A DNA stretch of 64,000 nt from a bacterium (GTDB lineage Bacteria; SZUA-182; DTGQ01), in the NCBI GenBank assembly GCA_040755755.1, contig JBFLZW010000013.1:62001-126000 (forward strand), written 5' to 3'. Shown here in pieces: positions 47,137-63,989 of this stretch; positions within the stretch are counted from its first letter, which is position 1, and every line of letters begins with the position of its first letter. A program made the position numbers and the translations under genes. The notes below the pieces were generated by a model that did no database searches, had not been told where the DNA came from, and was given only the letters and a program-made list of their open reading frames with translations.

Positions 47137-47141
47137 AGAAG

Positions 47142-47888
47142 TTACTCCTCCACCAGATTCGCGGTAAACATCCGGGCTTTGGCCGCGGCGTAAGCGGGCT
47201 GCATTCCCGTCTTGATCAGCAGCTCTACCAGGGAATCCACATTCGGGTTATCCACAAAGCCCCGGCAGGCCTCGCAGGGGATGCCGTTGGTTGGACAGAG
47301 AGCACCACAGCCTGCCCTGGCCACCACGCCAAGACAGGTATCCTGAAGCTCGTAGCGGCAGATGTTTTCCTTCTTTTTACATTCCACGCAGACCGGATAG
47401 TTCGGAATAGTCGGTGCCTTGCCATGCAGCAGGTCCGAAACCAGCCGGACGAATTCCGCCCGGTCGACCGGACAGCCGGGAATCGCCAGATCCACCGGAA
47501 TGGCCGCTGAAATAGGCAGGGCTTTCTGGGTTTCGAGGTGAGGCAGGGTCGCATCCGCACCGTACACCTCCACCTTGTATTTATAATCGGGCTTATGATT
47601 CTTCAGGGCATTGATTCCGCCCGTGGCCGCGCAGGAACCATAGGCAACCACCAGATTGGCCCGCTGGCGGATCTTTTGCAGCCGGGCGCGGTCCTTTTCC
47701 CGGGAAAAGCTCCCCTCCACGAAGGCAATGTCCAAAGGTGCGGAGCAGGTTTCTTTCATGATCTCCCGAAACTCCACAACCTCCACCGCCTGAAGCAGCT
47801 TCAATAAATCCTGATCGAAATTGGCAATTTCCACCTGGCATCCTTCGCAACTGGTGAAGTCAAAAAAGGCGACCTTTGGTATACTCAT
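47142..47888 (-). CDS. hydD: [NiFe] hydrogenase small (delta) subunit
   Basis: The 248-aa subunit begins with FFDFTSCEGCQVEIANFD, the proximal cluster ligands. VAYGSCAATGGI and IPGCPVDRAEF complete that cluster. A C-terminal Cys-rich region (CVECKKKENIC, CLGVVARAGCGALCP, IPCEACRG) supplies two further clusters. It relays electrons from the Ni-Fe site. It abuts hydG directly and precedes hydA by 5 bases. Confidence 0.94.
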   Translation of the reverse strand: MSIPKVAFFDFTSCEGCQVEIANFDQDLLKLLQAVEVVEFREIMKETCSAPLDIAFVEGSFSREKDRARLQKIRQRANLVVAYGSCAATGGINALKNHKPDYKYKVEVYGADATLPHLETQKALPISAAIPVDLAIPGCPVDRAEFVRLVSDLLHGKAPTIPNYPVCVECKKKENICRYELQDTCLGVVARAGCGALCPTNGIPCEACRGFVDNPNVDSLVELLIKTGMQPAYAAAKARMFTANLVEE

Positions 47889-48773
47889 TTAGAACGCCTC
47901 CTCCAGATTTTTAATCCTGGCATAGTTGAAAACCGGCCCATCGGTGCAGACATAGAGGCCATTGATCTGGCAATGACCACATTTTCCCACTCCGCATTTC
48001 ATTCTCCGCTCCAGGTCAACATAGATATGAGAATCCGGAACAGCCAGTTTTTGCAGTTCCTTGATAACAAATTTGTACATGATCGGCGGACCGCAGATAA
48101 TCACCCGGTAATCTTCGCTGATGCTGGTTTGAGCAAACAGGGTGGTGATTACTCCTACATTCCCTTTCCAGTCAGGGCTCCCCTGATCCACGGTCTCATG
48201 ATACTCGATCCACTCGCTCCCATCCCTCCATCGGGCCAGATCATCCAGGAAAAGCTGGTCCTTCGGGGAGCGGGCACCGAAAAACAGGACAAATCGGCCA
48301 AACTCTTCCCTCCGGTCCTCGATGTATTCAATCATGCTTCTGGTAGGGCATAAACCGATTCCTCCGGCGACTATCAGCACATTATGGCCTTTGAATTCCT
48401 CCACCGGAAAGCCTGTTCCCAGGGGGCCTCGAATGTACATGGTATCGCCCTCGTTCAGGTTCCACAGGGCAGTGGAAACGCGTCCGGCTTTTCGAATCAC
48501 CAGGTCAAAATACCCTTCCCGGGTGGGGGAAGAGGCGATTCCCAGCGGAATTTCGCCGAAACCGAACAGGGATGCCTCGACAATCTGGCCAGGCTGGTGG
48601 GCTATCGAAGTGCCATCCGTAAAGGCGAGGCGAAACTGTTTCTCGGTTCTGGCCATTGGCTGAACCTGAAGTATTCTGGCCGGTTTTGGCAAAAATATAT
48701 TTTCCCCTTCCCGAACAGCTTCTTCGGTAATTAATTTATCTTCCTTATCATCAGTATAATAAGGGTGACTCAT
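47889..48773 (-). CDS. hydG: Hydrogenase gamma subunit, FAD/NAD(P)-binding
   Basis: The 294-aa ferredoxin-reductase-like subunit has a flavin-binding barrel (GSASIAHQPGQI-like region near 50, and GPLGTGFP). An NAD(P) domain follows (VLIVAGGIGLCPTRSMIEY, VIICGPPIMYKF), and a C-terminal [2Fe-2S] ligand set (RRMKCGVGKCGHCQ ... VCTDGPVF). It exchanges electrons with NADP(H). The first 30 residues are less conserved. It is followed without a gap by hydD. Confidence 0.94.
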   Translation of the reverse strand: MSHPYYTDDKEDKLITEEAVREGENIFLPKPARILQVQPMARTEKQFRLAFTDGTSIAHQPGQIVEASLFGFGEIPLGIASSPTREGYFDLVIRKAGRVSTALWNLNEGDTMYIRGPLGTGFPVEEFKGHNVLIVAGGIGLCPTRSMIEYIEDRREEFGRFVLFFGARSPKDQLFLDDLARWRDGSEWIEYHETVDQGSPDWKGNVGVITTLFAQTSISEDYRVIICGPPIMYKFVIKELQKLAVPDSHIYVDLERRMKCGVGKCGHCQINGLYVCTDGPVFNYARIKNLEEAF

Positions 48774-48774
48774 A

Positions 48775-49800
48775 CTATCCCTCCATAATTTTATTGAGGA
48801 CAGGCACCGGGTTGGCCAGATCTGCCGGACAGGCTGCAGCGCAGCGGCCGCATCCTACACAGGCAGGTCCCCCTAATTTTGAATTCAGATAAACAGCCTT
48901 GCGCATGATCCGGTGACGGTACCGGGAAGAACGGTCCTCCCGGAAGTTTTCCGTACCACCCTGCACGGTAACTTTGGCAAAATCCTCGGTCAGACAGCCA
49001 TCCCAGGTCCGAAACCGGGTTCCCGATACCTGATCGAGATTCCAGACATCCTGGACATCAAAACAGTAGCAGGTTGGACAAACCAGATTACAGGCTCCGC
49101 AGGAGAAACAGCGGCCAGCCATCTCTTCCCAAATCGGGTGGTGAAAGGAATGGTTTACCTTTTCGGCAACTTCTTCCGACAGGTGAAGCAGCTTCTGGGA
49201 ACATCGATCGGTTTGCCCGTACAGGATTTCCTTATGCATTTCCACCTGTTGAGGCGCAGCCTGAGAAAATTTCCCCTGAGTAAGCAGAGCTTCCCCTTTT
49301 TCGGTGGCTACCTCAACCACAAACCCTTCTTCCCCGATATCGGTCAGGAACAGATCATACCCCGTGGTAACGATGCTGGCTCCTATGCTTTCGAAGAAGG
49401 CGGTTTTGAAGACCTGATGGACATTGATGCCTACAATGGTGGTTGAATGACGGTTAGCCAGGTAATTCCAGTCCTTTTTCCCCTCGCTGAACAGATGGTC
49501 CAGCATGGAAATGGCCTTGATGTCATACGGATGCACACCGAAAAGGATCCTTGGCCTCGGTTCTATACACCCCTGAAACCCTTCGGGAGAGAATTTGACC
49601 AGGTCCTGCTGAGGCTGAAAAAAATACTTCTTGGGAGGGAGGATGGTCGTATCAAAATCCAACCGCAATTCAGCAGGGCTCTCGATCTTGTCGAACACAA
49701 ACCGATTCTTTTTGGCCTTTGGACCCACCACTTCCTGCGAGGCAATGAGATTCTGAACAAATGGCCCCAGTTCGTCTCTTTGTAGAAAAAGCAGTCGCAT
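48775..49800 (-). CDS. hydB: Hydrogenase beta subunit, 4Fe-4S protein
   Basis: The product of about 341 aa has two [4Fe-4S] motifs in its C-terminal third: CFSCGACNLVCPTC and CVGCGRCAAACP. WDGCLTEDFAKV lies between them. The N-terminal part matches the AsrA/HydB beta-subunit family (PRILFGVHPYDIKAISMLDH). It connects the flavin subunit with the electron pathway. The ATG at 49800 follows AAGGGGAAT; the longer frame to 49857 has no ribosome site. It is first of hydBGDA. Confidence 0.93.
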   Translation of the reverse strand: MRLLFLQRDELGPFVQNLIASQEVVGPKAKKNRFVFDKIESPAELRLDFDTTILPPKKYFFQPQQDLVKFSPEGFQGCIEPRPRILFGVHPYDIKAISMLDHLFSEGKKDWNYLANRHSTTIVGINVHQVFKTAFFESIGASIVTTGYDLFLTDIGEEGFVVEVATEKGEALLTQGKFSQAAPQQVEMHKEILYGQTDRCSQKLLHLSEEVAEKVNHSFHHPIWEEMAGRCFSCGACNLVCPTCYCFDVQDVWNLDQVSGTRFRTWDGCLTEDFAKVTVQGGTENFREDRSSRYRHRIMRKAVYLNSKLGGPACVGCGRCAAACPADLANPVPVLNKIMEG

Positions 49801-49829
49801 ATTCCCCTTTCTCCCTTCGGTGACCGGTG

Positions 49830-49857
49830 ATAATGAATTTCGTTGCGGTACTTTCAA
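49830..49857 (-). promoter_or_regulatory. Possible promoter of the hydrogenase operon
   Basis: On the reverse strand TTGAAA (49857-49852) and CATTAT (49835-49830) are 16 bases apart, with about 30 bases to the hydB start. Confidence 0.4.
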
Positions 49858-50571: not shown

Positions 50572-52971
50572 CTATGGGTACGACTGCCCTGGATGGTATT
50601 TCAGGGTTACCCGCAAATAACAGGGAGCGCCGGTATATCCCCAGTCGTCATCGGGATGAGCTGAGTTGACATAGTTAAAGTCACTGATGCTCAGGTAAAA
50701 TTTACCTTTCCAGGCATCTCCAACCCAGAATTTTTGATTTGTCCCTTCTTTCGGTATCGTAACCTCGAAGGGGCTGACAGCAGTGTCAACATCTCCGGCA
50801 CTGGCCATAAATCCGTCTGAATCCCGTGGGCGATCGACCAGTATCCTGTTCTGATTCCAGTCCCGGTAAAGTTTCCAGACGTATTCCACATCAGAACCCG
50901 GAGCACCGGTATGGAAATCGATGATGATGTCATAGTACCATTTGGTTGGAGCAGGCTGGTTCCCATCCTCCAGGGGGGTAAGGTCGATCTGGAACCAGTC
51001 CTGATCGCCCTGAAAATCGATATATCCCGCAATCCAGGGGAAAGAGATGGTCGCCTGGTCATTGCTGCGCGCAATGGTGATTTTCTTCGAACTCATTTCC
51101 TCTGGATGATTTGGATCATTCAGCCGGTTGGGATCATGGAAATCGAGAATTCTGGTATTGACCCGGTAATCTTTTTTTATCAGAGAAGTATGTTCGAGCT
51201 TAATCGAAGCGGCGGATTCATCCGCAAGCTCCATGATTTCGGTATAATAGACGACCGCATTCTGATCAATGGCAGGATCGGGCGGCAGAGCCTGCGGAAT
51301 ATCCCGGATATTGGCCTGAATCCGGTAGGGATTCAGCCCATCGCCATTATCCCCCTGGTAATCACAGACCCTGAAGAAATAGGAGAGCGGGCTCAAGGTT
51401 TCCTGTGCCGGAACAAGAACACTCATCTTGAGCTCACCGGGACCAGGCTCACCATTATTATCAAAGGCCCTCCTGATCACCTCGTCACGCATAAGGCTGA
51501 GGGAGTAGTCCACCGGGGAAGCCTGGGAATTGGTGTCCAGGAATACCTCAAGCACCCTGGGGCTGCTGGTATCTGTTATCCCCATCCGATACCAGTCCTC
51601 GTCTCCCCGAAAGGCGATTTTAGCCGGAGTGAGGCTGTCCGAAACGAGAATATCGGCGGTATCGATGGTATTGTTTCCGATAGCGGTCTCACCGGTATCG
51701 GGATCGATAACCTTCACTGCATCTTCGGCAGGATCGCTCACGTCCAGGACCTCGATCAGGACGCGGTACGGGGCCGATCGGGTGATGATCTTTCCCTGGG
51801 CAGCCTGAACCACAAGGTAATGGTCCCCTGCTCCGGCCTTGATCTGGTTTTGACAGGTTGTCGATCCGCCGGTATAGCTATGGGAAAGCAGGGCTGCTCC
51901 GCCTGCATCCTCCAGGGAGAGCTGATAGGTGAAGCTCAGGCCCTGCCCCTGATCATCGAAGCTTATTGCCAGAACTTTGCAGCCCGAAGCAATGATATCG
52001 TCAAGGCAGATGAGGTACCAGTCCTGATCCCCCAGGTAATCGAGGGAGCCTTCTGCAGTGAAGGTGCGGGTTGCGGCATCATATTCCATGGAGGAGGCGC
52101 TCGCTCTCGCATCGTTGGTATCCTGCTCATCAGCCTCACAGGAGGCCACGCAGATATCATAGGGTGAAGCCTGATCGAAGTCATCCCGTCCGTAATCTTC
52201 GATCAGCACATAATAATCTCCGGCAGCAAGATACGGGAGAAGATGGCAGCCATTCCCCTGTCCCTGAGCCGGCAGGGAGGAGAAGGATTCAGCCAGCACG
52301 CCCTGACTGTCGTAGAGCTCGAGTGCAAGCTGCACTTGTGTTCCGCCGGAGAAGGGGGTAAAGTCAACCAGGATGTCATAGACGCCGTCTGTTGGGGCTG
52401 TAAACCGGAAGCAGTCGATATCACCGATAGAGCTGATACTGTCACTCCGGCAGCTCTCCGGGTCATCGACAATGAGCACAAGGGCCTGGGCGAAATTTTC
52501 ATTTCCTTCCGGACCCCTGGCAAAATCGAGGGTGAGGTAATAGGGATTATTCGATGATTCATCATCCATGAGGTCCCGCACGGAAATATAAATATCCTGC
52601 GGGGCATGGATAGCGATATTCAGGGAAATCCGGGCTGGCAGATAACTGCCCTCGGGTGCATGGTCAGCCATGAGCCTCACTCTGCTGCCATCTGCATCCT
52701 GCCGGTAAACGGTTACCAGAAGCTCTTCATCGGAGCGATAGGTGTTGGATGCACAATTAACCTGGAGGATGCTGTTGGCTTCAACCGCCCGGAAGTGATA
52801 CCAGTCAACCTCTCCGGGCTTCGAGATGGTCCCGGACACCTGCTGCCGCAAAGCCAGTTCCCGGACCGTGTTTTCCTGTTTCGCGGGAGACTTGCTGCCG
52901 CAGGAGCAGAGCCATACTGCCGCTATGGGGATGAAAAGGGATAAGGCCATTGTTCGATCGGTGCATTTCAT
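50572..52971 (-). CDS. Lipoprotein with repeated PPC-type domains
   Basis: The 799-aa product has a lipoprotein signal (FIPIAAVWLCSCGSKS, Cys near residue 24). About five copies follow of a beta-sandwich resembling the bacterial pre-peptidase C-terminal (PPC) domain, marked by GEVDWYHFRA, GDIDCFRFTAP, GDQDWYLICL, GDEDWYRMGI and GDQDWFQIDL, each followed by a Tyr-Tyr-rich strand. No catalytic domain is present, so it is probably an adhesive or calcium-binding surface protein. The ATG at 52971 is chosen for the signal peptide. It is the last gene of the envelope cluster. Confidence 0.8.
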   Translation of the reverse strand: MKCTDRTMALSLFIPIAAVWLCSCGSKSPAKQENTVRELALRQQVSGTISKPGEVDWYHFRAVEANSILQVNCASNTYRSDEELLVTVYRQDADGSRVRLMADHAPEGSYLPARISLNIAIHAPQDIYISVRDLMDDESSNNPYYLTLDFARGPEGNENFAQALVLIVDDPESCRSDSISSIGDIDCFRFTAPTDGVYDILVDFTPFSGGTQVQLALELYDSQGVLAESFSSLPAQGQGNGCHLLPYLAAGDYYVLIEDYGRDDFDQASPYDICVASCEADEQDTNDARASASSMEYDAATRTFTAEGSLDYLGDQDWYLICLDDIIASGCKVLAISFDDQGQGLSFTYQLSLEDAGGAALLSHSYTGGSTTCQNQIKAGAGDHYLVVQAAQGKIITRSAPYRVLIEVLDVSDPAEDAVKVIDPDTGETAIGNNTIDTADILVSDSLTPAKIAFRGDEDWYRMGITDTSSPRVLEVFLDTNSQASPVDYSLSLMRDEVIRRAFDNNGEPGPGELKMSVLVPAQETLSPLSYFFRVCDYQGDNGDGLNPYRIQANIRDIPQALPPDPAIDQNAVVYYTEIMELADESAASIKLEHTSLIKKDYRVNTRILDFHDPNRLNDPNHPEEMSSKKITIARSNDQATISFPWIAGYIDFQGDQDWFQIDLTPLEDGNQPAPTKWYYDIIIDFHTGAPGSDVEYVWKLYRDWNQNRILVDRPRDSDGFMASAGDVDTAVSPFEVTIPKEGTNQKFWVGDAWKGKFYLSISDFNYVNSAHPDDDWGYTGAPCYLRVTLKYHPGQSYP

Positions 52972-52987
52972 GATGAAGCCCCCCTTG

Positions 52988-54607
52988 TTACTGAAGCAGG
53001 ACAAAATCCTGTGGGGTAAGGATAATATGTTTATTGGGTTCGTTGATATTTACGACCACCTCGGCCATCCGGAAGATCGGCGTGATGGATGGATTATCTT
53101 CCGGCACCTCGGCAATGTAGAAGCGGATAAGGTTATCTCCCGGACGCAAGGCAACGCCGTTCTCCGTGGTACACCCCAGGGTGTCCATGAGGTCGATATT
53201 CGAAATCGTGAAATGGTACTGCCGTACATAGGAGGGCAGGGATGATCCCTGCGACAGGGGCACTAACCCCTGGTCCCTGACATCGTACTGATAGCTGTAT
53301 CGCTCCCGTATCCTGGGATCATTCGAGGTGACATTGGTATGCCGCTGGACCTCCTGGTAATCCGCTACGCCGTCAAAATCGCAATCAGCGGTGGATTGGT
53401 CTTCGAGAGGATTTGTGCCCATGGGAAATTCAAGGCCATCTGGGATGCCATCTGCATCCGAATCCGCAACATGCCGGTTGGTGCCCTTGACATATTCCTC
53501 GCAGTCCGTCAACCCATCGTTATCGGAATCCGGCCAGATGCCATCGGGCATCTGATCGCAGGGGCTGTCCGGCAGCCGGGGATTGAGCTCATGACCGGGG
53601 GAGCTTGATTTGACCTCGAAGAAATCGCTGAGCCCGTCGGCGTCAGTGTCCCGGCTGCCCGGATCGGTGCCGCGAGCCGCTTCCTCCTCATCGGTGAGGC
53701 CGTCGGCGTCGCTGTCGGCATACACCAGCTCTAGCCCCGGCCTGACATTATAGTTGAAGGCAACCAGGTATTTGATCTTGTACTCGACCGTCAGGCGCAT
53801 ATCGACAATATTGATAAAATCGATAGCTTCAGCGTTTTCGAACAGACGAAACTGCCCCTCCCCCCGGTCAGCCATCCCTTCCAGGGTCGTTTCCGCCATC
53901 TGCCGGGCCAGTTGTCCATCTGCCGTCGGCGGAAAATTGCCAAGCAGGAGAAAGGTATGGAAATTAAAGGACCCGACTCCCATCTGGGCAGCCATCTCGC
54001 GCATTTCATTGACCCGGTTCCAGATATCCGTATCGGACTGCCTGCCGCCCTGGACGTTGGACATGCCGTCACTCAGAAAGACGACAATGTACTTGGTGCG
54101 GATAAGGTTCTGTTCCTCCTGTGCCTTCACCCGGTTGATGTCCCGCTCGATATCGGCATATATGGCCTCCAGGGTTCCCAGATAATCGGTCATGGTATCG
54201 TTGGCCACCCGGTTCAGGACCCGGTTGATCTCGTCAGGATCTTTGGTAAACCCTCCCCGGCCATCGGTGGTCCTTGTCCGCTCGAAGACATCGTTATTCC
54301 AGAGCATGATCTCAAAGGAGGTGTTCTCGTTGCTGTTATAGGTATCGACAAAGGTCCGCACCGCCTCGATCCGCAGAAAGTGCGGATCAGACCCCACCAG
54401 TTGGCCGTTGACCGTATCCCCCATGCTCAAGGAGCAGTCAATGGCAAACAGGACCTTGACCGGAAAGCGGATCTCATCAGGGCTTTCGGTAACAAACATT
54501 CCCTCAAGCGTTACCTTGGGCAGGGACTGGATCCTCTCAAGATCAGGCCCGCCCCCGCACCCCAGGGCAACAGAAAGGATGAGGCAGACAAAGAGGGAAA
54601 ATACCAT
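52988..54607 (-). CDS. VWA-domain lipoprotein with thrombospondin type 3 repeats
   Basis: The product of about 539 aa has a lipobox VALGC (Cys near 16). A von Willebrand A domain (about 50-290) has the MIDAS motif DCSLS and YIVVFLSDGMSN. Calcium-binding thrombospondin type 3-like repeats follow (DSDADGLTDEEEAARGTDP, DSDNDGLTDCEEYVKGTN, DSDADGIPDG). A beta-rich C-terminal domain of about 100 residues ends it. The ATG at 54607 is preferred: the longer frame to 54937 overlaps the upstream gene in another frame and crosses a CACAGAGA repeat. It is probably surface exposed and binds a partner through the metal site. Confidence 0.85.
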   Translation of the reverse strand: MVFSLFVCLILSVALGCGGGPDLERIQSLPKVTLEGMFVTESPDEIRFPVKVLFAIDCSLSMGDTVNGQLVGSDPHFLRIEAVRTFVDTYNSNENTSFEIMLWNNDVFERTRTTDGRGGFTKDPDEINRVLNRVANDTMTDYLGTLEAIYADIERDINRVKAQEEQNLIRTKYIVVFLSDGMSNVQGGRQSDTDIWNRVNEMREMAAQMGVGSFNFHTFLLLGNFPPTADGQLARQMAETTLEGMADRGEGQFRLFENAEAIDFINIVDMRLTVEYKIKYLVAFNYNVRPGLELVYADSDADGLTDEEEAARGTDPGSRDTDADGLSDFFEVKSSSPGHELNPRLPDSPCDQMPDGIWPDSDNDGLTDCEEYVKGTNRHVADSDADGIPDGLEFPMGTNPLEDQSTADCDFDGVADYQEVQRHTNVTSNDPRIRERYSYQYDVRDQGLVPLSQGSSLPSYVRQYHFTISNIDLMDTLGCTTENGVALRPGDNLIRFYIAEVPEDNPSITPIFRMAEVVVNINEPNKHIILTPQDFVLLQ

Positions 54608-54710
54608 GCTTCCCGGTAACTCCTGAGTCCCCTCTGTGTCTCTGTGTCTCTGTGGTTTCCTTTCCCTGCGATCTTTGCTGATCCTTCCATCCGGTTGTTT
54701 GCCATTACCG

Positions 54711-55559
54711 TTACCGTACATCGCAGGCATCTCCTTTCCCATCCCGGTCCCTGTCCGTCTGGTCAGGATTGGCATGTCTGGGGCAGTTATCACAGGCATC
54801 GCCGATGCCGTCCTCATCAAAATCCGTGTTCTCGGAGGTACGGCAGTTGGGACAAAGATCTCTGTCGGGTCCATCACCCTCCAAAAAGCCGTCATTGTCC
54901 AGGTCCTCATCGCAGACATCGCCGGCCGTATCCCCAATCATGAAAAAATCGCTGTTTTCCTGCTCCGGGTTATAGACCCTGCTGCAATTGTCAACCGTAT
55001 CCGGAACCCCGTCATCGTCATCATCCTCATCGCAGATGTCCCCGCGCTCATCATGGTCATAATCCGCCTGGAGAGGATTACCAATAGCGGGGCAATTATC
55101 ACTCTGGTTCACGATGCCGTCTCCATCGATATCTCCATCACAGGCATCCCCAATCCCGTCCCCGTCGGTATCGAGCTGATCGTTATTGGCCATACCAGGG
55201 CAATTATCGCAGGCATCCCCGTGGTCGTCGCCATCGGCGTTCCGGCTCTGGTCGTTCGGGGTGTAGGGGCAATTGTCCCTGGTATCGACCACCCCGTCGG
55301 CATCGTAATCCTCCTGGAGCGAGAAAAGCGGGCCGAGGTCGTAATTGACCACGATCGGGCCGCCGCCTCCCCCGCCTCCTCCGGCACCGCCGGATGGAGG
55401 TGCGCCGCACAGATCGTCGGGGCATTCGTCAAACCAGTCATTGGGATTAAAATCCTGGGCCTGAACCGGAATACTCCTCCCGGCAGCCATGACAAGGGCA
55501 GTGAAGAGAACCACGAAGAGCATACGGGTGAATGGATGGGAAACAGGGTGCTTGTACAT
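54711..55559 (-). CDS. Secreted thrombospondin type 3 repeat protein
   Basis: The 282-aa product has a signal peptide (LFVVLFTALVMAAGRSIPVQ, then AQ), a Gly-rich linker GGAGGGGGGGG, and at least six calcium-binding repeats of the form DxDxDGxxDxxDNCP, for example DTDGDGIGDACDGD and DFDEDGIGDACDNCP. Each repeat has the paired Cys of the family. It ends DRDGKGDACDVR. The protein should be stiff and calcium-dependent. GAGGTGAT precedes the ATG at 55559. It stands between the FxxG-type lipoprotein gene and the VWA lipoprotein gene. Confidence 0.85.
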   Translation of the reverse strand: MYKHPVSHPFTRMLFVVLFTALVMAAGRSIPVQAQDFNPNDWFDECPDDLCGAPPSGGAGGGGGGGGPIVVNYDLGPLFSLQEDYDADGVVDTRDNCPYTPNDQSRNADGDDHGDACDNCPGMANNDQLDTDGDGIGDACDGDIDGDGIVNQSDNCPAIGNPLQADYDHDERGDICDEDDDDDGVPDTVDNCSRVYNPEQENSDFFMIGDTAGDVCDEDLDNDGFLEGDGPDRDLCPNCRTSENTDFDEDGIGDACDNCPRHANPDQTDRDRDGKGDACDVR

Positions 55560-55569
55560 ACCTATCACC

Positions 55570-56931
55570 TCACACTTGCGCGGGATGGAAGAGATAAATC
55601 GTTCGTTCCGTCCCGGAGTAGGAACAAATGACGGGCCTGTTCCGCCCGTCAAACCATAAGCTGTTATAGAGGCCGATATCTCCGCTCGAGGCCACGGTCT
55701 CCCTCTTCCATGCGCCTTCCTGAAGTTGAGCGAACCTCAGGTTGTTCGCGGCATATCCGCTATGGCTTTTCAGCTCATAGTAGGCAATGGCGGCAGATCC
55801 TGCGGCATCGTAGGCCAGACTGCAATAATCCCCGCACCAGGAGGTATCATCCACCATCTGAATCCGCCAGGATGAAGCCTCTTCTTCCGCATACCGCAGG
55901 CAATGATGGTCGGCCCTCCCGTCGCCATACTCCTCGACGTAATAGGCTACGCCCAGGAATCCTCCAGCATCACACCGGGCGCCGCTTATCGAGCCAACCA
56001 CGCAGCCTTCCTCGATCCATTCCTTTTCCCATATCCCCTGCTGTCTGCGGGCCACCCGAAGGCCTCTGGTATTGCCGGGAAGCTCGGCATAGTAAAAAAT
56101 GACCGGATTGTCCCCGCTATCCAGGGTAATTACACAATGGTAGCCCACACTGTTTTGCACATTGCTGCCATCATCATAGTGATTCCCCTCGACCGTCTCC
56201 TCAAGAGCCGCTGCAGAAAGCGCCGAGCGGTCCTTTTTCACGTAGCAAAGATCGGGGTAGCGGTAATTCATGGCATCGCAGCCTTCATAAAAGAACTGAT
56301 AGGCGAGGTGGATGGCCCCTTCCGAATCAACCGCCACCGAGACCTCGGTTCCCGCCAGCCCATCCTGGAACACGGGATTTCGCTCGACAATCCCGACAGC
56401 CCCGGTATATTCTCCCCATCCGCCCGCAGCCTTAAGGCTCAGCATGGCATCGGACTGCTGCTCCCTGCCGCATTCCCGGACCGTTCCTCCCCGGTAGGAG
56501 ATCACCGGCAGGTTATCCTGGCCAAGGGCCAGGGAGAGGGCCGCACAGTTATCGATGCTCGTGACAGGTTCCGGTTCAGGGCTGGAGGAAAGGGTTCGGA
56601 GAGTGCCGGTCGGGTTGTCTAGGACCAGGTACTGAATCTGATAAGCGGCAGCGGTATTATCATCGTCCTGAAAATACGCAAGGTGCACGGTGCCTTGTGC
56701 ATCCCTTGCCGCCTTGACCCGCGGACTGAGCATCCCTCCAGCCTCGATCCGGGCGAGCGGGACATTTTCCCACCGGCTGGCCACGACATTCCGGGATTGG
56801 CTGCCGGTATTGTTACTGCCTCCCCCGCCTCCTCCACATCCGAGGATATTTGTATAGATAATCAGAAGGAGCGCTAACAGCGATATCACCAGTTCCAGGT
56901 ACCCGCATCTCCTACCCCCGAAGGTAAGCAT
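55570..56931 (-). CDS. Lipoprotein with a beta-propeller-like repeat domain
   Basis: The 453-aa product has a lipoprotein signal ending IYTNILGC with a poly-Gly tether (GGGGGG). Repeated segments of about 60-70 residues follow, each with an AxDxxGxxHLAY-like core (ARDAQGTVHLAYFQDD, AVDSEGAIHLAYQFF, TLDSGDNPVIFYYAEL, AYDAAGSAAIAYYEL). This is typical of beta-propeller blades of the BNR/NHL-like kind. No enzymatic residues can be named. The start at 56931 gives the lipobox and overlaps the end of the TPR gene by 20 bases. Confidence 0.8.
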   Translation of the reverse strand: MLTFGGRRCGYLELVISLLALLLIIYTNILGCGGGGGGSNNTGSQSRNVVASRWENVPLARIEAGGMLSPRVKAARDAQGTVHLAYFQDDDNTAAAYQIQYLVLDNPTGTLRTLSSSPEPEPVTSIDNCAALSLALGQDNLPVISYRGGTVRECGREQQSDAMLSLKAAGGWGEYTGAVGIVERNPVFQDGLAGTEVSVAVDSEGAIHLAYQFFYEGCDAMNYRYPDLCYVKKDRSALSAAALEETVEGNHYDDGSNVQNSVGYHCVITLDSGDNPVIFYYAELPGNTRGLRVARRQQGIWEKEWIEEGCVVGSISGARCDAGGFLGVAYYVEEYGDGRADHHCLRYAEEEASSWRIQMVDDTSWCGDYCSLAYDAAGSAAIAYYELKSHSGYAANNLRFAQLQEGAWKRETVASSGDIGLYNSLWFDGRNRPVICSYSGTERTIYLFHPAQV

Positions 56932-59900
56932 AGTAAGATTCCCGTGCCTGTGGATGGATTGCATCTTTGGTCTCCTCAACCCTTGCCTGATTCGGAAGGG
57001 CCTGGTAAAGGTCTCTGGCCTTGTCGATATGGCCATAATACTGATAAAGTCCGGCAAGATTGACCCGTGCGCCGATATGGTGAGCATCGAGAGCCAGGGC
57101 TTTGGTAAAAGCATCTTTTGCCAGACTGTCCTCGCCAATGGCGAGATAGGCTACACCAAGGGCATTGTATATCCTGGCCTGCACTGCCTTATCAAAAGCT
57201 TTAGCCTCGCCGAGGGCTTTTTGGGCTATGAGGATCGAGAGCCTGACATCTCCCTTTTCCCGGTAGGTCTCGGCAAGAGTCAAAAGAGCGGTGGGATCGC
57301 CCGGATCCTGCATCAGCTTTTGATGGATCCCCCGTAAGGTCTCATCCTTTGACCATTGGGAGGTTATTTCAACCAGGGGCCGTGCCTTTGAAAAACCGGC
57401 GTTCCTTGATTGCCGTCCTGCTGAATCGAGGAAGCAGGGTGCCAGCTTCGGATCGCACACTTCCCAGGAATGTGCTTTCTCGACACAGGCCCGGCGATAT
57501 TCATCCGCCTTATTGCCATATCCTTGAGCCTTCTGGTTCAAAAGCTCGCGGTACTGCTCTTTCTCTTCAGGGGATAAATCAGGCAGGGGAGATTCCTGGA
57601 GAAAGCGTTCGAATTCCCGGTAGATCTCATACGAACGGTAGCAGGCGGAAAGAGCCCATTCAGGAGACTGATATTGGATGACGGCGGCGTAGCCCTTCTC
57701 CAGGTTCTCGAGGAGCTTTGCCTTGGCAGCCACCAGGCTGGTATCGATACTCCCGGAGAGCTGAAGGCCCATATAGTCCTGAAAAGTCTTTTCAAGAAGG
57801 TTATATTCCATTGCGGCCATCCGGGTGCGCACATCCCTGTCCTTCCCGGCCAGATCGGGCTTGCAGGCTTTTCTGGCTTGTGCGGCCAGGGCACGTGCCG
57901 TATCGAATTCACCTGCCTGGGCATGGAGATCGGCCATGCGGGCATCGGCTTTCAGTTGCCCCAGGGGGGATGCCTGGTCCCGGCAGGTCTGGAGCACCTT
58001 CAGTGCCGCGTCTCCGCTCCCTTTTTTCTCCGCATTGTCGGCCATGGCCATGAAGATTTCCTCCCTGGCACCGGCGCTCTTTCCTCCCCGGTCGAGAACC
58101 ATCTGATAGTCCTTATTGGCAAGATCGTATTGCCCAAGGCTCTCCCGGATCCGGGCTGCCTGATACAGGAAATCGGTGCTGCTGCTTTCTTTCGGAAGCC
58201 GCACGCTGAACTCTTCGAGATATTGAGCCAGGAGCCTGAACTGGCTGATCCGCAGCGAGGAATCGATCAGAAGGCTTAAGGTGTCTTTAATTTTCGCTGA
58301 CGAGGGATAGTGGACGATCAATTCAGAGCCTGCATTAAAGAGGGTCTCAAGATCTCCCTTCTCCTTGCTGGGAAGCAGCAGGGCATACAGGGCATATTCT
58401 CCCATCGAGGCACCTTTCTGCTGATCGGCTATCCGGGAAAGACCTCCCTTGCCCTTGTCCCAGTCATTGACCGCGGACACGGTGAGAGAATTGATGATCT
58501 TGGATTCCGCGGCCTGTACGATCCCGCTGACCTCGGTCTTCAATTCCTCATCCTGGATATTCCGATCTTTGAGCACCTTTTGGCCGTATTTGACCAGACC
58601 TGCATAATCCTCTTTCAGGTTATAGGCATCGAGAATAAGATGGACCGCAGCCCTGGCCTCTTCCCCCGTGGGGCAGCGATCGATAAACCGGGAAAATTCG
58701 GCAATGGCTTGGTCATATTTTCCCTGATCATAGGTGATCCAGGCCACGTTAAAGAGCACATTCGAAACCCGGTGCGATCCGGGAAAATCACTGGCATAGA
58801 CCTGGCCGCAGGCCGTGAGCCCTCCTCTGGCTGAGGCAATCTCATAATAGGTGAGGCTGTCTTTCTGTTTCAGAGCGCGATAATACGAGAGCACCGCGCT
58901 GTAGAGGCCCTCTTCCCGCTGCCGGTTTTTTTGTGGTATAGCCAGGGCGCATTTTTCGTATTGCTTCCCGGCCTCAAGGTATCTTTGGGCTGAAAACAGC
59001 GCCTCGGCGTAATTCGCTTCCATCTCACGATACACAGGGCTTGTGTCAAAAAATTCAAGGTAAGCCTTGTACGAGTCCGCGGCCCGGATAAAATCCTCTT
59101 TCGATTTTTTCTCTCTGGCTTTCTGGTGGAGGTGAGTAATAATGTCTCTGGCATAAAGTTCGAAGTCAGCCAGATTTTTCTTTTTCTCTTCTTCAGAGAT
59201 ATGGACCGAGTATTTCTGTGCCTTGAGTGCCCCGACCATAATGGCCACATCCTGATCCGCATCCTCGAAGCGCTCCAGGGACTGGACACATTCGAAGATT
59301 CTGCGGCTGTATTCCAGAAGCTTTTCGACATCATAGCGCAAGGTCGCCAGTTTGCGGTAAATGGCCGCGGCATGAGACCACTTGTTCTTGATCAGGTAGC
59401 GATAGGCCAGTTTTTCCAGAGCCAGAGTATAGACGGGCCGTGACCAGGCATATTTTTCAAAGTAGGCTATCGCATCCTGCGGGCTGCTCTCTTTGTAACA
59501 CTCGCAATAGCAATAGGCCATATCGGTCAGGGCCTCGGTTCTCACATCCACCCTTTTGTAGGTGTCGATATCCAGCTCGCTGGTATCGCTGAGGCTGGTG
59601 ACCGACTCCTCGAAGAGCTTGATGGCCTTCTGGAAGTCCACCCTGTTGATGTAACACCAGCCCAGCTTATACCGGGCAAGAGCTGCGGCTGAGCTTTGAG
59701 GATAGGTTAACACCTCCTCGTAGTGCCTTTGGGCCATATCGAGGTCCGACAGGTTGAAAAAATGGTCCCCCAGCAGCAGATAGGCTTCCGCTGCATACGG
59801 GCTGTCCTTGTATTTGCTGATAATGGCCCGGTACTGGCCGACCATGTCCTCGATCTGACCAAGCTCCCGGTATTCATGAGCCAGAAAGAAATGCACCTTG

Positions 59901-60340
59901 TCAAGCTCCCCGAAATCGGGGAAGTTGTTGATGATGCGGTGATAGATTTCGATAGCCTGATTCTTCAGGGTGTTCGATTCAAAATGCTCCAGCGATTTGA
60001 CCGATGAGGAGCCTTTCGGGCTCTCAGCCTTGCGGAGAAAATAGATAATGCGGGATTTTTCGATGTACAGCTCAGCCAGGCGAAGGTAGAGTTCGGGAAG
60101 ATAGGGTTTGTTCCTCGACCGGTCAATCAGGACCCTGGTATTTTGTATGGCCAGGTCACATTTCTTTTTATCTTCCCTGAGCTTGAGGATAAATTTCTTT
60201 TCTTCCCCGCAGGTGTCCTTTTTTTCGTAGGCGTAGCTCTCCGGCTTTTCAGCCTGGCCGCTGCCATAAGCCGGTGCAGCCAGAAAAACAAGCCCCAGGA
60301 TACTAATAATAGCTTTGCAGGTGAGATGTTTTGTTGTCAT
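56912..60340 (-). CDS. Large periplasmic TPR protein, about 1142 aa
   Basis: A signal peptide (MTTKHLTCKAIISILGLVFL, then AAPAYGS) is followed by about 20 or more TPR-type helical repeats over the full length. Clear units include PYAAEAYLLLGDHFFNL, SAAALARYKLGWCYINR and, near the end, ARIYNALGVAYLAIGEDSL and HIGARVNLAGLYQYYGHID. It resembles the giant TPR proteins of myxobacterial gliding and envelope complexes and is probably a periplasmic scaffold. The start at 60340 is favoured; an ATG at 60358 overlaps the upstream stop and is an alternative. Confidence 0.82.
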   Translation of the reverse strand: MTTKHLTCKAIISILGLVFLAAPAYGSGQAEKPESYAYEKKDTCGEEKKFILKLREDKKKCDLAIQNTRVLIDRSRNKPYLPELYLRLAELYIEKSRIIYFLRKAESPKGSSSVKSLEHFESNTLKNQAIEIYHRIINNFPDFGELDKVHFFLAHEYRELGQIEDMVGQYRAIISKYKDSPYAAEAYLLLGDHFFNLSDLDMAQRHYEEVLTYPQSSAAALARYKLGWCYINRVDFQKAIKLFEESVTSLSDTSELDIDTYKRVDVRTEALTDMAYCYCECYKESSPQDAIAYFEKYAWSRPVYTLALEKLAYRYLIKNKWSHAAAIYRKLATLRYDVEKLLEYSRRIFECVQSLERFEDADQDVAIMVGALKAQKYSVHISEEEKKKNLADFELYARDIITHLHQKAREKKSKEDFIRAADSYKAYLEFFDTSPVYREMEANYAEALFSAQRYLEAGKQYEKCALAIPQKNRQREEGLYSAVLSYYRALKQKDSLTYYEIASARGGLTACGQVYASDFPGSHRVSNVLFNVAWITYDQGKYDQAIAEFSRFIDRCPTGEEARAAVHLILDAYNLKEDYAGLVKYGQKVLKDRNIQDEELKTEVSGIVQAAESKIINSLTVSAVNDWDKGKGGLSRIADQQKGASMGEYALYALLLPSKEKGDLETLFNAGSELIVHYPSSAKIKDTLSLLIDSSLRISQFRLLAQYLEEFSVRLPKESSSTDFLYQAARIRESLGQYDLANKDYQMVLDRGGKSAGAREEIFMAMADNAEKKGSGDAALKVLQTCRDQASPLGQLKADARMADLHAQAGEFDTARALAAQARKACKPDLAGKDRDVRTRMAAMEYNLLEKTFQDYMGLQLSGSIDTSLVAAKAKLLENLEKGYAAVIQYQSPEWALSACYRSYEIYREFERFLQESPLPDLSPEEKEQYRELLNQKAQGYGNKADEYRRACVEKAHSWEVCDPKLAPCFLDSAGRQSRNAGFSKARPLVEITSQWSKDETLRGIHQKLMQDPGDPTALLTLAETYREKGDVRLSILIAQKALGEAKAFDKAVQARIYNALGVAYLAIGEDSLAKDAFTKALALDAHHIGARVNLAGLYQYYGHIDKARDLYQALPNQARVEETKDAIHPQARESYYAYLRG

Positions 60341-60354
60341 TGGAAAATATCCCA

Positions 60355-61869
60355 TCATTTGAAGAAGATATCCCACTCTTCGAGGCAGTTGCATTTGTTG
60401 GGCAAAGTTACCGTGTAATCATCCAGCTCATCGTTCCAGAATTCTCCCTGGAAGGGATAGATGGCTATCCTTCCTGTTGGCTTTTGGGCCGAAGCAGCAT
60501 CCTCCCGGTAGTGATACTGATATACCCGCTGGTACATATCGAGCCCGATCTCATATTCCATGAGGTTGGCCTCTTCCTCGAACTTCAGGATTTCGTTGGC
60601 CATTTTCTCATACTCTTCCTTGATCTGGGTTCTCAATACTCTGGTCATTTTCTCGATTTCAAGGGTATACAGCTTATCCAGGAACCCGCACAGAGGCTTA
60701 TCGGGAAAGAGGGCGATCTTTTCCTTTTCCTGCTCCAGGAGCTTCAGGAATCTCCAGGTCTGGTTGATCTTTTTTTTGCTCAGAAGGAGCAGGAGCAATC
60801 CGGGGTCATCGGCTGCCTCTCCCCTGGCGTAAATCGTTTCCAGGGAATGGCCGTAGTGAGCCTTAAATTCCCTGACTACAGCCAGGGCCTTCTGATAATG
60901 GCACACCTCTTTGTAGATGAGAGATTTCAGGATATAGTGTTCAGGGGTAAAATAATCCCGGAAGCCGGGGGCTTCAAAGGCATATAAAAGCCCCATTGCC
61001 TTTTCCGAATTTCCGAGGCGGTAGTGGTTCCAGGCCCGCTCGAAGAGCGTCTGGGCCTGTTCGAGAACCGGTTTCGGATTCTTCTGATAGATGCGCTCAG
61101 CCTCAGCATGCTCTCCCTTTTCATAGAGCAGGCGGGCCAGGGTGGTGGCCGCCTCGCTTTTCAGATCATCCGCCGTACCGGGAGATTCCAGAATATCCTG
61201 AGCTATGGCCATAGCCTCATCGATCTTATCCTGATAAATCCTCAGCATGGCTTTTTGAAAAAGATAGCGGTAATAGTAATAGCTCTTTGGAGTAATCCGG
61301 TGAAAGTGATTATCCCCCCACTGGAAGAATCCACGCTCCCAGTCGAACATCCCCTGATAATAATTGATAAAATCAGCCATCTCCTCTTCCAGCGCACCAT
61401 ATTCCTGATCACAGACAACCGTGTTGATAATAAGCTCGCGGTCAAAGGGGATGGTGCGGGTTATTTCCTCGAAGAGCTCAAGGCAGTAGGAAACGATCCT
61501 GGGATTCGGTTTTCTGACGATAAGATTCACCAGCTCATCGACTGCCGCATGGGACAGGCCGCACTTCTTCAGGCAGATGCCGAAGAAGAACTGCGCCCAT
61601 TCATAGTCAACCACGTCCGGTGAGTTCATACTCAGGAAATGGAACAGCCGGGGAGCTGCAGCAGCATAATTCTTTTTCTCAAAAAGCGCATATCCCCGGG
61701 CAAAAGAATTTGGATCCTTCATTGGAATGGCGGCATCAGCATCCTGCTGGACAACAGGGGGCTTTTGATCCTTTTCACCTTCCCCAGGGTTCTCTGATGC
61801 CAAAGCCCTGCCGGAGGAGATTACCATGATCCACAACAATATCAGTGCATATCCGATTATACGCTTCAT
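60355..61869 (-). CDS. Periplasmic TPR protein, 504 aa
   Basis: A signal peptide (IIGYALILLWIMVISSGRAL, then ASE) is followed by an acidic linker and TPR-like helices from about residue 55 (FARGYALFEKKNYAAAAPRL) through 300. A helical, charged domain (about 380-450) and a unique C-terminal segment with two Cys in NKCNCLEEW follow. The start overlaps the preceding barrel gene by 4 bases (ATGA). It is probably a partner of the larger TPR protein. Confidence 0.8.
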   Translation of the reverse strand: MKRIIGYALILLWIMVISSGRALASENPGEGEKDQKPPVVQQDADAAIPMKDPNSFARGYALFEKKNYAAAAPRLFHFLSMNSPDVVDYEWAQFFFGICLKKCGLSHAAVDELVNLIVRKPNPRIVSYCLELFEEITRTIPFDRELIINTVVCDQEYGALEEEMADFINYYQGMFDWERGFFQWGDNHFHRITPKSYYYYRYLFQKAMLRIYQDKIDEAMAIAQDILESPGTADDLKSEAATTLARLLYEKGEHAEAERIYQKNPKPVLEQAQTLFERAWNHYRLGNSEKAMGLLYAFEAPGFRDYFTPEHYILKSLIYKEVCHYQKALAVVREFKAHYGHSLETIYARGEAADDPGLLLLLLSKKKINQTWRFLKLLEQEKEKIALFPDKPLCGFLDKLYTLEIEKMTRVLRTQIKEEYEKMANEILKFEEEANLMEYEIGLDMYQRVYQYHYREDAASAQKPTGRIAIYPFQGEFWNDELDDYTVTLPNKCNCLEEWDIFFK

Positions 61870-62576
61870 GGTTTTCCATCTTCCCGCAGATAGTTCTGTA
61901 AGACCTTGACGGTTTCGTCCCTCTCCGTTTTTCTCGGAGACAGGTTAAACCGGAATCCCAGGCCAAGACCAAAGCCAAGCCGGTTTTCCCTTTTATCTTC
62001 CCTGAAATTGACCAGATCACGGATTTCGAGATTCAGGCACAGGTGCTTGCGGATAAAGTATTTCATGCCGATTCCAAAGCTCACCGAAAGGACGTTTTCT
62101 ATCACTGCCGCGGGCTTGTTTTCATAACTGACCATCCCTCCGCCGAGGAAAAGGTAGCCCTCGTGGTTCAGTATCCGGCGATTCCAGACCGCATCCTTCC
62201 CATAGAAGGGCTTCACCACCAGGTGGGTATGAACCATATACTTGGTTTCCCTGAATTCCGTGGGTGCAACCCCGAATTTCTTCTCAAGGTCTTTGCGCAG
62301 CTCCTTTTCCCGGTTGAGCATCAGGTATCCCCTGGCTACCTCCCAGCCCAGATGTTCATTGATGTGGTAGGTATAATGGAGCCCCAGAGGATAAAGATGA
62401 TAGAAATCATCATCGGGAAAATAGCCACAGCTTGCGCCGATTTCATGGCAGTAGTGGAATACCCTGTTCTGAATGGCATACACCTGCTCCTTATCTGCCG
62501 GATCCTCTCCAAACCCCTCCCGTGGACCAGGGAAAAGCAGCAGCAGGAGGAATAATAAAACGATCCATCGTTTCAT
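61866..62576 (-). CDS. Outer-membrane beta-barrel protein (Myxo-type OMP family)
   Basis: The 236-aa protein has a signal peptide (RWIVLLFLLLLLFPGPREGF) and then alternating beta-strands: LYPLGLHYTYHINEHLGWEV, YLFLGGGMVSYENK, FGIGMKYFIRKHLCLNLEIR and FGLGLGFRFNL. It resembles the outer membrane beta-barrel domain described from myxobacteria and relatives (TIGR04565-like), usually beside AgmX-type genes as here. AAGGAG lies nine bases before the ATG. A C-terminal tail follows the last strand. Confidence 0.8.
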   Translation of the reverse strand: MKRWIVLLFLLLLLFPGPREGFGEDPADKEQVYAIQNRVFHYCHEIGASCGYFPDDDFYHLYPLGLHYTYHINEHLGWEVARGYLMLNREKELRKDLEKKFGVAPTEFRETKYMVHTHLVVKPFYGKDAVWNRRILNHEGYLFLGGGMVSYENKPAAVIENVLSVSFGIGMKYFIRKHLCLNLEIRDLVNFREDKRENRLGFGLGLGFRFNLSPRKTERDETVKVLQNYLREDGKP

Positions 62577-62588
62577 GCACTCATCTCC

Positions 62589-63989
62589 TTAAAAACCTAC
62601 GATATCGAAAATAAAGGGATAGGAAACAACCACTTCTGCACCCTGGGGTTGGGGAAACTGCCAGGATTTGATTTTCTCCTTCATACATTCATGGATCGAA
62701 TCCGATTGAACGGAAGAAAAGCTGGTCCGGATCTCTCCCACTCTGCCGGAGAGCAGGATTTTCCATTCAAAGACAATCTTTCCCATAAGCGAGGGATTCG
62801 AGATCAGGGCGGTTTCGTAGCAATTGGTGATCTCGGCAAGGTGCTGGTCAATCACTTTCTTGACCGCCTCGCGGCTCATGCCTCCTCCCTGGACGCTCAC
62901 CTTCTTGCTCAGCTCTGCCTTGACCATGGCCATGACCTGCTTCTGCCCGGTCTGGCCTGTCTCCAGAGCGCCGACCTGATCCGGCTCGTCCTGCCCTGCT
63001 GCCTCCGCATTCCCTGCCAGGCCGATTCCCCCGCCCTTGCCTCTTCCATAGGCGGCCACACTCCCCTTTCCGGCAACACCGGCACTGCGTAAAACCTGGG
63101 CAGATCCCCGGGTAGTGACTACGCCGCCGGAAGGCACTTCGATCCCCGAAGTATCCAGCTTCCCGACGATGCCGCCAACCTTGAAATTCCCTTCACTGCT
63201 TGTGGGGGAAGAGACAATGTCGAGGTTCGTCACTGCGGCCAGCACCTGTTTGGCTCCTGACTGAGGTCCCGGATCAACTCCATCTTTGGTGCCGAGCACG
63301 CTGAGGAGCCCTGCCTGCTTGATGTTGCGGTTTACAATATTCCCCCCGGCTTTGCCGCTGCCTCCCCCCGCATCGGGTGACAGGCCATTGGCAGGCCCGG
63401 CCCCGGATGATTCCCTCTGAAGCGAGCTGACCACGTGAGGACGGCCAGTCCGGGAAGAAGGGTTTTTAGCAACGGAGCGGGTGGAGGCTTCTTTTGCCGT
63501 GCGCTTCACCTCAAGAGAAGCGGTTTTCTCCTGCGGCACCGGTTTTTGGGTTTCAAGCGGCTGGGTCTTTTTCGGCTGCCGGCTCTTTTGGGGTTCCGGT
63601 CTGGCTGCCTTTTGGGGAACGCTCGTATTGCTCATCTCGGTCAATTGCCGGGTATCCACCTGAGCAAAGCGCGGCTTTTCCGGAACGGGCGAGTGAGATT
63701 GCTCCGGCAGCGAAAATACCACTCCTCCCAAAATGAGTAAAAGTCCATGAACGAGCAGGGATTGAAGGAGATTTTTCGGGAAGCGCCGCTCTTTGTCCCG
63801 ATGAATCGCAACCTGCGGACTTTCTCCCGGTTCAGTGGCCCGGACGATATATTCGTAGCAGCCGTCGCTGAGATAGAGGGTGCCCTGCAGGGGGAGCTTC
63901 GAGCGGTAGATCCGCTCCATGTGCGGATACGAGCAGAGGTTTTCAGGCCTGCACAGGCTGGTGAGCTCTTTGACAGTATCTTCATACAT
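62589..63989 (-). CDS. AgmX/PglI-type TonB-like envelope protein
   Basis: The frame begins at an ATG 11 bases from the right edge, so the start may lie beyond it. A cytoplasmic N-terminal part of about 75 residues (LYLSDGCYEYIVRATEPGES) leads to one membrane helix (NLLQSLLVHGLLLILGGVVF). A long Pro/Lys/Gln-rich periplasmic linker follows, then Gly/Ser-rich spacers. The conserved AgmX/PglI C-terminal domain (about 370-466) has GGGMSREAVKKVIDQHLAEI, TNCYETAL and SWQFPQPQGAEVVVSYPF. The layout matches GltG/GltJ and other TonB-like proteins that cross the periplasm. It heads the visible envelope cluster. Confidence 0.88.
   Translation of the reverse strand: MYEDTVKELTSLCRPENLCSYPHMERIYRSKLPLQGTLYLSDGCYEYIVRATEPGESPQVAIHRDKERRFPKNLLQSLLVHGLLLILGGVVFSLPEQSHSPVPEKPRFAQVDTRQLTEMSNTSVPQKAARPEPQKSRQPKKTQPLETQKPVPQEKTASLEVKRTAKEASTRSVAKNPSSRTGRPHVVSSLQRESSGAGPANGLSPDAGGGSGKAGGNIVNRNIKQAGLLSVLGTKDGVDPGPQSGAKQVLAAVTNLDIVSSPTSSEGNFKVGGIVGKLDTSGIEVPSGGVVTTRGSAQVLRSAGVAGKGSVAAYGRGKGGGIGLAGNAEAAGQDEPDQVGALETGQTGQKQVMAMVKAELSKKVSVQGGGMSREAVKKVIDQHLAEITNCYETALISNPSLMGKIVFEWKILLSGRVGEIRTSFSSVQSDSIHECMKEKIKSWQFPQPQGAEVVVSYPFIFDIVGF

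Follow-up and report, generated by a model that had tools for sequence, protein, structure and literature searches.

A twelve-gene operon joining an AglRQS-Glt-type motor core to Mts-like surface proteins in a bacterium of the SZUA-182 lineage

Described relatives and layout of the operon

Among the closest described systems are the envelope machines of Myxococcus xanthus. There, GltG is an interaction partner of AglR, and the AglRQS motor drives the movement of the Glt and Nfs machines at the cell surface (PMC3169522, PMC3858216). Nfs moves spore-coat polymer with the same motor, and the core has been proposed to be a basal transport machine whose use is set by its cargo (Wartel et al., PMC3858216). 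According to Luciano et al. (2011, PMC3169522), the AglRQS-Glt core (Group B: aglRQS, gltC, D, E, and G) is found in gammaproteobacteria, Geobacter, and others, with a patchy distribution that involves horizontal transfer; in bacteria that do not glide it stands alone as a cluster, its function unknown, and in M. xanthus it is insufficient on its own for gliding; GltF and GltH are confined to Myxococcales and Bdellovibrionales. Here, we describe a related operon in a stretch of 64,000 nucleotides (the window) from contig JBFLZW010000013.1 (C13; positions 62,001 to 126,000) of assembly GCA_040755755.1, a bacterial genome of 5.26 Mb that is 97.6% complete.

The operon comprises twelve genes on the minus strand and extends, in the window frame, from 50572 to 67239, beyond the right edge of the window. 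Its order is AglR-ExbD(AglQ-like)-ExbD(AglS-like)-GltF-GltG-barrel-GltC-GltD-propeller-TSP3-VWA/TSP3-PPC (Table 1). The motor-side genes up to GltG share a strand and overlap or are separated by short gaps. An earlier note on this stretch had described eight consecutive reverse-strand genes, beginning with an AgmX-type gene at 63989, as a path from cytoplasm to surface. All eight open reading frames were recovered in place. The AgmX-type identity of the first was retained, but its start was not, since the reading frame runs on to 65120 and includes an N-terminal FHA domain. The unit itself is also longer, with four further genes continuing it to 67239. These include the MotA/TolQ/TolR-type genes that the note had proposed to look for to the right of the window, and they lie directly upstream in the same operon.

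As in the described core, a MotA/ExbB-type protein, two ExbD proteins, an FHA-TonB-type GltG, and the TPR proteins GltC and GltD are encoded in a single cluster. The operon differs in including genes for a GltF-like protein and an OMP_myx_plus barrel and in carrying a four-gene VWA/TSP3/propeller/PPC module of which the accessible text of PMC3169522 makes no mention; no separate GltE match was found. We favor, with a probability of roughly 0.6, the reading that it encodes an AglRQS-Glt-type machine that spans the envelope, is driven by protons, and stands alone, with its own Mts-like cargo of integrin-like adhesion proteins based on Ca2+ and a metal ion-dependent adhesion site (MIDAS).

Table 1. 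Genes of the operon, listed from the last to the first. Positions are in the window frame (window position = L002 position + 48000); the starts of the PPC, VWA, TSP3, propeller, and GltD genes were chosen from signal peptides and lipoboxes as the likely true ones.
Product	Position	Strand	Remarks
PPC-repeat lipoprotein	50572..52971	-	799 aa (ATG at 52971); lipobox LCSC; final gene
VWA + bacterial TSP3 lipoprotein, MtsD-like	52988..54607	-	539 aa; lipobox ALGC
Secreted thrombospondin-3 repeat protein, MtsC-like	54711..55559	-	282 aa
Lectin-like beta-propeller lipoprotein	55570..56931	-	about 453 aa; lipobox ILGC; start approximate
GltD-like periplasmic TPR protein	56912..60340	-	1142 aa; homologues 44-54% identical (best segment, Desulfobacterota-type), about 31% in Myxococcus
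GltC-like periplasmic TPR protein	60355..61869	-	504 aa; NF033756 1.7e-31
Outer-membrane beta-barrel, GltH/OMP_myx_plus type	61866..62576	-	236 aa; TIGR04565 2.5e-24
GltG-like FHA-TM-TonB/AgmX-tail protein (TM, transmembrane)	62589-65120 (L002:14589-17120)	-	843 aa; only C-terminal part inside window (to 64000)
CglF/GltF-like protein	65117-65470 (L002:17117-17470)	-	117 aa; NF033764 1.2e-4
ExbD, AglS-like	65483-65971 (L002:17483-17971)	-	ExbD profile; Asp25 present
ExbD, AglQ-like	65992-66540 (L002:17992-18540)	-	ExbD profile; Asn36 at AglQ Asp28 site
MotA/TolQ/ExbB, AglR-like	66592-67239 (L002:18592-19239)	-	MotA_ExbB (PF01618) 1.2e-29; first gene of operon

Motor and periplasmic core

In profile searches, both ExbD proteins matched PF02472 (E values of 2.7e-11 and 6.6e-11), and a comparison of hidden Markov models told them apart. 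The first scored 66.6 bits with the AglQ profile and 9.9 with that of AglS, and the second scored 93.2 bits with AglS against 14.4, which makes them the AglQ and AglS counterparts, respectively. The GltG-like protein combines an N-terminal FHA domain (9.2e-9), a transmembrane segment read from the sequence only, and an AgmX/PglI tail (myxo_SS_tail, NF033768, 7e-30); its match to NF033760 (1.6e-33, 116 bits) lies under the equivalog cut-off of 650. The same applies to the GltC-like protein (110 bits, cut-off of 450) and to the CglF match of the GltF-like protein, whereas the barrel scored over the cut-off of its family. Full-length homologues of the GltD-like protein exist. The GltE profile (NF033758) found no match among the window proteins, in which only two TPR proteins are present.

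Tol-Pal and TonB-ExbBD systems share the motor superfamily and a TonB-like C-terminal transducer with this operon, which differs from them in its lack of TolA, TolB, and Pal and in the FHA domain on the transducer. A Tol-Pal operon was rejected on scores (77.7 bits for the TolQ equivalog, cut-off of 221), and neither the TolB nor the Pal profile had a match among the operon proteins.

The two ExbD subunits differ at the proton site. In alignments with a few overlapping copies of one genome among the rows, Asn occupies the AglQ D28 position of the AglQ-like subunit, as in the window, in 23 of the 24 rows that have a residue there; Asp occurs only in a distant Bdellovibrionales locus (L115). The AglS-like subunit has Asp in all 25 rows. 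M. xanthus AglQ and AglS, as well as a second M. xanthus pair, carry Asp in both subunits, and the D28N change in AglQ abolished proton conductance and paralyzed the M. xanthus machine (PMC3858216). Because of this Asn, the window-type motor would have a single proton site, in the AglS-like subunit, or be otherwise compensated. No description of the conserved Asp-to-Asn change was found in the literature.

A second motor-AgmX cluster is located on contig C78 of the same genome (L015:1-10229; C78:40000-50228), in agreement with the further AgmX copy that had been predicted. It encodes a 1617-aa TPR protein, a TPR lipoprotein, a 307-aa protein with CXXCH haem motifs, ExbB, two ExbD proteins (one with Asn at the proton site and one with Asp), and an FHA/AgmX protein. 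Homologues of its AgmX tail in a congener and in a family member make this cluster look ancestral in the lineage.

Surface proteins and their Mts counterparts

The TSP3 protein matched TSP_3 (1.1e-38) and, over positions 5-266 of 428, the MtsC profile NF047638 (1.8e-64, 218 bits, cut-off of 350). It terminates after the TSP3 repeats, without a MYXO-CTERM tail, and thus does not qualify as an MtsC equivalog. Likewise, the VWA-TSP3 lipoprotein (TSP3_bac, 3.3e-13) is not an MtsD equivalog by score (NF047639, 2.6e-39, 135 bits, cut-off of 800). Its VWA profile match is weak (0.028), but the MIDAS is intact (D58-x-S60-x-S62, T122, and D181 in the aligned protein) and invariant in 11 homologues, as are the aspartates of the TSP3 repeats in the same alignment. 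In an AlphaFold2 model with a predicted local distance difference test (pLDDT) score of 75, the VWA part matches complement C2a and the pilus-tip adhesins GBS104, RrgA, and SpaC. Since the matches cover this part only and have low TM-scores, the fold search points to nothing finer than the VWA family. Together, invariant residues and modeled fold support a VWA domain.

The 453-aa lipoprotein was modeled as an all-beta propeller (pLDDT of 82, predicted TM-score of 0.83) whose nearest solved structures are the Photorhabdus PLL/PHL lectins (Foldseek E value of 1e-11), followed by sialidases; judging from this model, it may bind sugar. Such a propeller could serve as a polysaccharide-binding adaptor in a machine that handles a surface polymer, capsule or coat, for which Nfs and the spore coat provide a precedent with the same motor (PMC3858216). 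We regard this as very improbable, as no genes for polysaccharide synthesis or export were recognized by eye in or directly beside the operon and the VWA/TSP3 content points to protein adhesion. The PPC domain of the last lipoprotein scored below threshold (7.5e-4).

Each of the four cargo proteins is predicted to be a lipoprotein or to be exported and must reach the surface. The motor-Glt core might act as an assembly or export machine that delivers, unmasks, or anchors the VWA/TSP3/PPC proteins there, comparable to the support that other proton-driven trans-envelope systems lend to secretion (type IX, for example). A conduit or a chaperone might be built from the barrel and the TPR proteins, and a dedicated substrate set would fit the strict co-inheritance described below. 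However, the barrel is small and resembles Myxo outer-membrane proteins rather than a secretin or a large translocon, the four proteins showed no shared sorting domain, and the precedent of the Agl-Glt/Nfs family is surface movement. This explanation appears rather unlikely, although it is the strongest of the alternatives.

A counterpart was found in M. xanthus (AM003), where paralogues of GltF-G-barrel-C-D lie back to back with the Mts operon. The latter encodes an 812-aa propeller/cytochrome-like protein, a 542-aa TSP3 protein, MtsC (597 bits, cut-off of 350), MtsD (1350 bits, cut-off of 800), a 600-aa MtsD-like protein, and a 796-aa lipoprotein. "Cell-cell cohesion" is the NCBIfam name for MtsC/MtsD and stands here as an annotation, not as checked evidence. 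In BLAST alignments, the window TSP3 protein shows 39% identity with MtsC (324 columns), and the window VWA protein shows 31% with the 600-aa protein (546 columns) and 26% with MtsD (601 columns). Both operons thus hold a TSP3 protein, one or more VWA-TSP3 proteins, and lipoproteins; that of the window differs in having its own motor. The 812-aa protein that heads the Mts operon (L124:2720-5158) has weak matches to a lactonase-type propeller and to cytochrome c, which makes it a candidate haem protein encoded among adhesion genes.

The same comparisons bear on whether the operon encodes a gliding engine comparable to Agl-Glt of M. xanthus, in which the VWA-TSP3 lipoprotein would take the role of CglB/CglD. 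The motor, GltG-type coupler, TPR proteins, and barrel are homologous to those of the Agl-Glt gliding and Agl-Nfs sporulation machines, the surface end of Agl-Glt is likewise a VWA protein, the focal-adhesion adhesin CglB (PMC13104615), and the VWA-TSP3 lipoprotein has a weak CglD match (2.1e-9), limited to the TSP3 region. Unlike those machines, the window system is encoded in a single operon, has Asn at the AglQ D28 position and other surface cargo, and comes from a genome in which no GltJ was found by the AgmX-tail test, because the only two AgmX-tail proteins are both of the FHA/GltG type (GltJ model scores of 41 and 37 bits, cut-off of 450). The insufficiency of the core for gliding in M. 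xanthus and the cohesion names of the neighbors of the corresponding Myxococcus cluster also speak against this option. Gliding by this machine is possible but not supported, and we consider it unlikely.

Conservation, origin, and proposed role

The earlier note had named gene-order conservation in relatives as a test of its proposal, and the genes do stay together, with twelve-gene collinearity across phyla. GTDB genomes were scanned with an alignment of three GltD sequences, which yielded 135 relatives; 80 of these were kept. The closest were metagenome-assembled genomes (MAGs) of Desulfobacterota, followed by gammaproteobacteria (39-47% identity) and Myxococcota (about 30%). Eight Desulfobacterota-type loci (L038, L039, L040, L043, L044, L046, L048, and L052) contain the complete set in the same order and on the same strand, as does L051 from a gammaproteobacterium of the Saccharospirillaceae, with a second VWA gene; three more (L041, L045, and L047) agree as far as their contigs reach. 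Collinear PPC homologues close the operon in L038, L040, L043, L044, L046, L048, L051, and L052; in L039, the PPC and GltG genes are in pieces. Elsewhere the arrangement varies: TSP3-VWA-PPC directly upstream of AglR in L125 and L126 (G141 and G065), a VWA gene divergent from AglR in Bermanella (L050), and, in many Myxococcaceae, a divergent orientation of the VWA and TSP3 genes relative to GltF-G-barrel-C-D. Since the linkage persists through rearrangement, selection on the combination of core and surface genes is likely. In an AT-rich genome of 2.3 Mb (G041), the AglR gene and GltD-GltC-barrel are separated by a gene for a TSP3-repeat protein that lies on the opposite strand (L016:4913-5728), and a VWA protein adjoins GltG in the same cluster (L031).

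Co-occurrence was strict. Among 297 genomes of the phylum of Desulfosudis (L048), searched at E <= 1e-20 for both proteins, a GltC-like protein and a full-length VWA/TSP3 protein were present in the same 8, with no discordant genome. Leaving out the centre genome, 7 had both and 289 neither (Fisher test, about 3e-14 under the not fully justified assumption of independent genomes). Only the centre genome among 321 gammaproteobacteria has either a GltC-like or a VWA protein, and it has both. As expected for co-inheritance, pairwise sequence distances of core and surface proteins correlate (r of 0.67-0.83; none of 2000 permutations was as high). Chance clustering was rejected on the basis of the cross-phylum collinearity and this co-occurrence.

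In a quick GltD tree with long branches, the window sequence falls inside a clade that otherwise holds Thermodesulfobacteriota (Desulfobacterota) and MAGs of unsure label (SH-like approximate likelihood ratio test, SH-aLRT, 99). A GltC homologue was present in none of eight other genomes of the same class. Because no sampled same-class relative has the operon, horizontal acquisition is likely, and an ancient event is the simplest explanation; sister lineages may instead have lost the operon. A misbinned contig is unlikely: the composition of the operon fits its host contig, and the tetranucleotide profiles of the operon and of its two flanks agree with that of another contig from this genome (0.79-0.89, against 0.14-0.58 for other organisms). 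Directly to the right of the first gene, a short fragment resembling the C-terminal part of a REP-associated transposase by eye (L003:1-220) is a possible trace of mobility. Further neighbors are an exported low-complexity protein with YGGLYGLYG repeats and no NCBIfam match (L003:909-1403), another with TFTPTFAPTF-type repeats (window 44096-45049), and a sulfhydrogenase-like NiFe hydrogenase operon (window 45817-49857), which adjoins the adhesion operon and appears unrelated to it.

From gene content, order, co-occurrence, key residues, and predicted folds, the physical assembly of the favored proton-driven machine may be outlined as follows. The AglR-like protein and the two ExbD proteins would form an inner-membrane motor of the 5:2 type. 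The FHA-TM-TonB-like GltG, with GltF, would couple this motor across the periplasm to GltC, GltD, and the outer-membrane barrel, which in turn would hold or move the adhesion module at the cell surface, namely, the lectin-like propeller lipoprotein, the TSP3 protein, the MIDAS-bearing VWA-TSP3 lipoprotein, and the PPC lipoprotein. The most likely outcome of such force transmission is Ca2+-dependent, force-bearing adhesion or cell-cell cohesion.

Several observations weigh against this assignment. The AglQ-like subunit carries the residue that paralyzes the M. xanthus motor, so that only the AglS-like subunit may drive the machine, or the drive may be altered. The matches to GltC, GltG, GltF, MtsC, and MtsD all fall under their NCBIfam equivalog cut-offs and are for this reason taken as homologues, not proven equivalents. 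The Myxococcus Mts locus lacks an adjacent motor, and its propeller-cytochrome and 796-aa proteins show no BLAST similarity to the window propeller and PPC proteins.

The earlier proposal of an envelope-spanning system akin to Glt/Nfs and joined to calcium-binding surface proteins is supported, and of its "adhesion or motility machine" the evidence favors the adhesion or cohesion side, with motility as one option only. Its statement that no homologous whole was known is too strong, given the AglRQS-Glt core complex (PMC3169522) and the Mts-related surface module (NCBIfam). Core and Mts are each known, and the combined cross-phylum operon was, like the Asn at the AglQ position, not found described; a literature search on Mts, TSP3 with Glt, and G4/G5 clusters found no paper describing a Glt-Mts link.

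The recurrence of the operon in several phyla suggests powered adhesion or cohesion, not gliding, as the original task of the family. More specifically, and tentatively, the ancestral Agl-Glt-Nfs machine might have exerted a proton-powered pull on calcium/MIDAS adhesins that join cells, through an asymmetric Asp/Asn ExbD axle, with gliding and spore-coat transport as derived uses. The conserved Asp-to-Asn change is a natural experiment on the number of proton sites that a 5:2 motor needs, and the presence of motor, transducer, and adhesins in a single operon offers a compact system for reconstitution. The operon itself supplies a cargo candidate for the proposed basal transport machine. A conserved surface cargo is now tied to the AglRQS-Glt core in Desulfobacterota, Gammaproteobacteria, Myxococcota, and the lineage of the window, and cargo of this type carries the cell-cell cohesion name in Myxococcus, which makes the question of the ancestral function directly testable.

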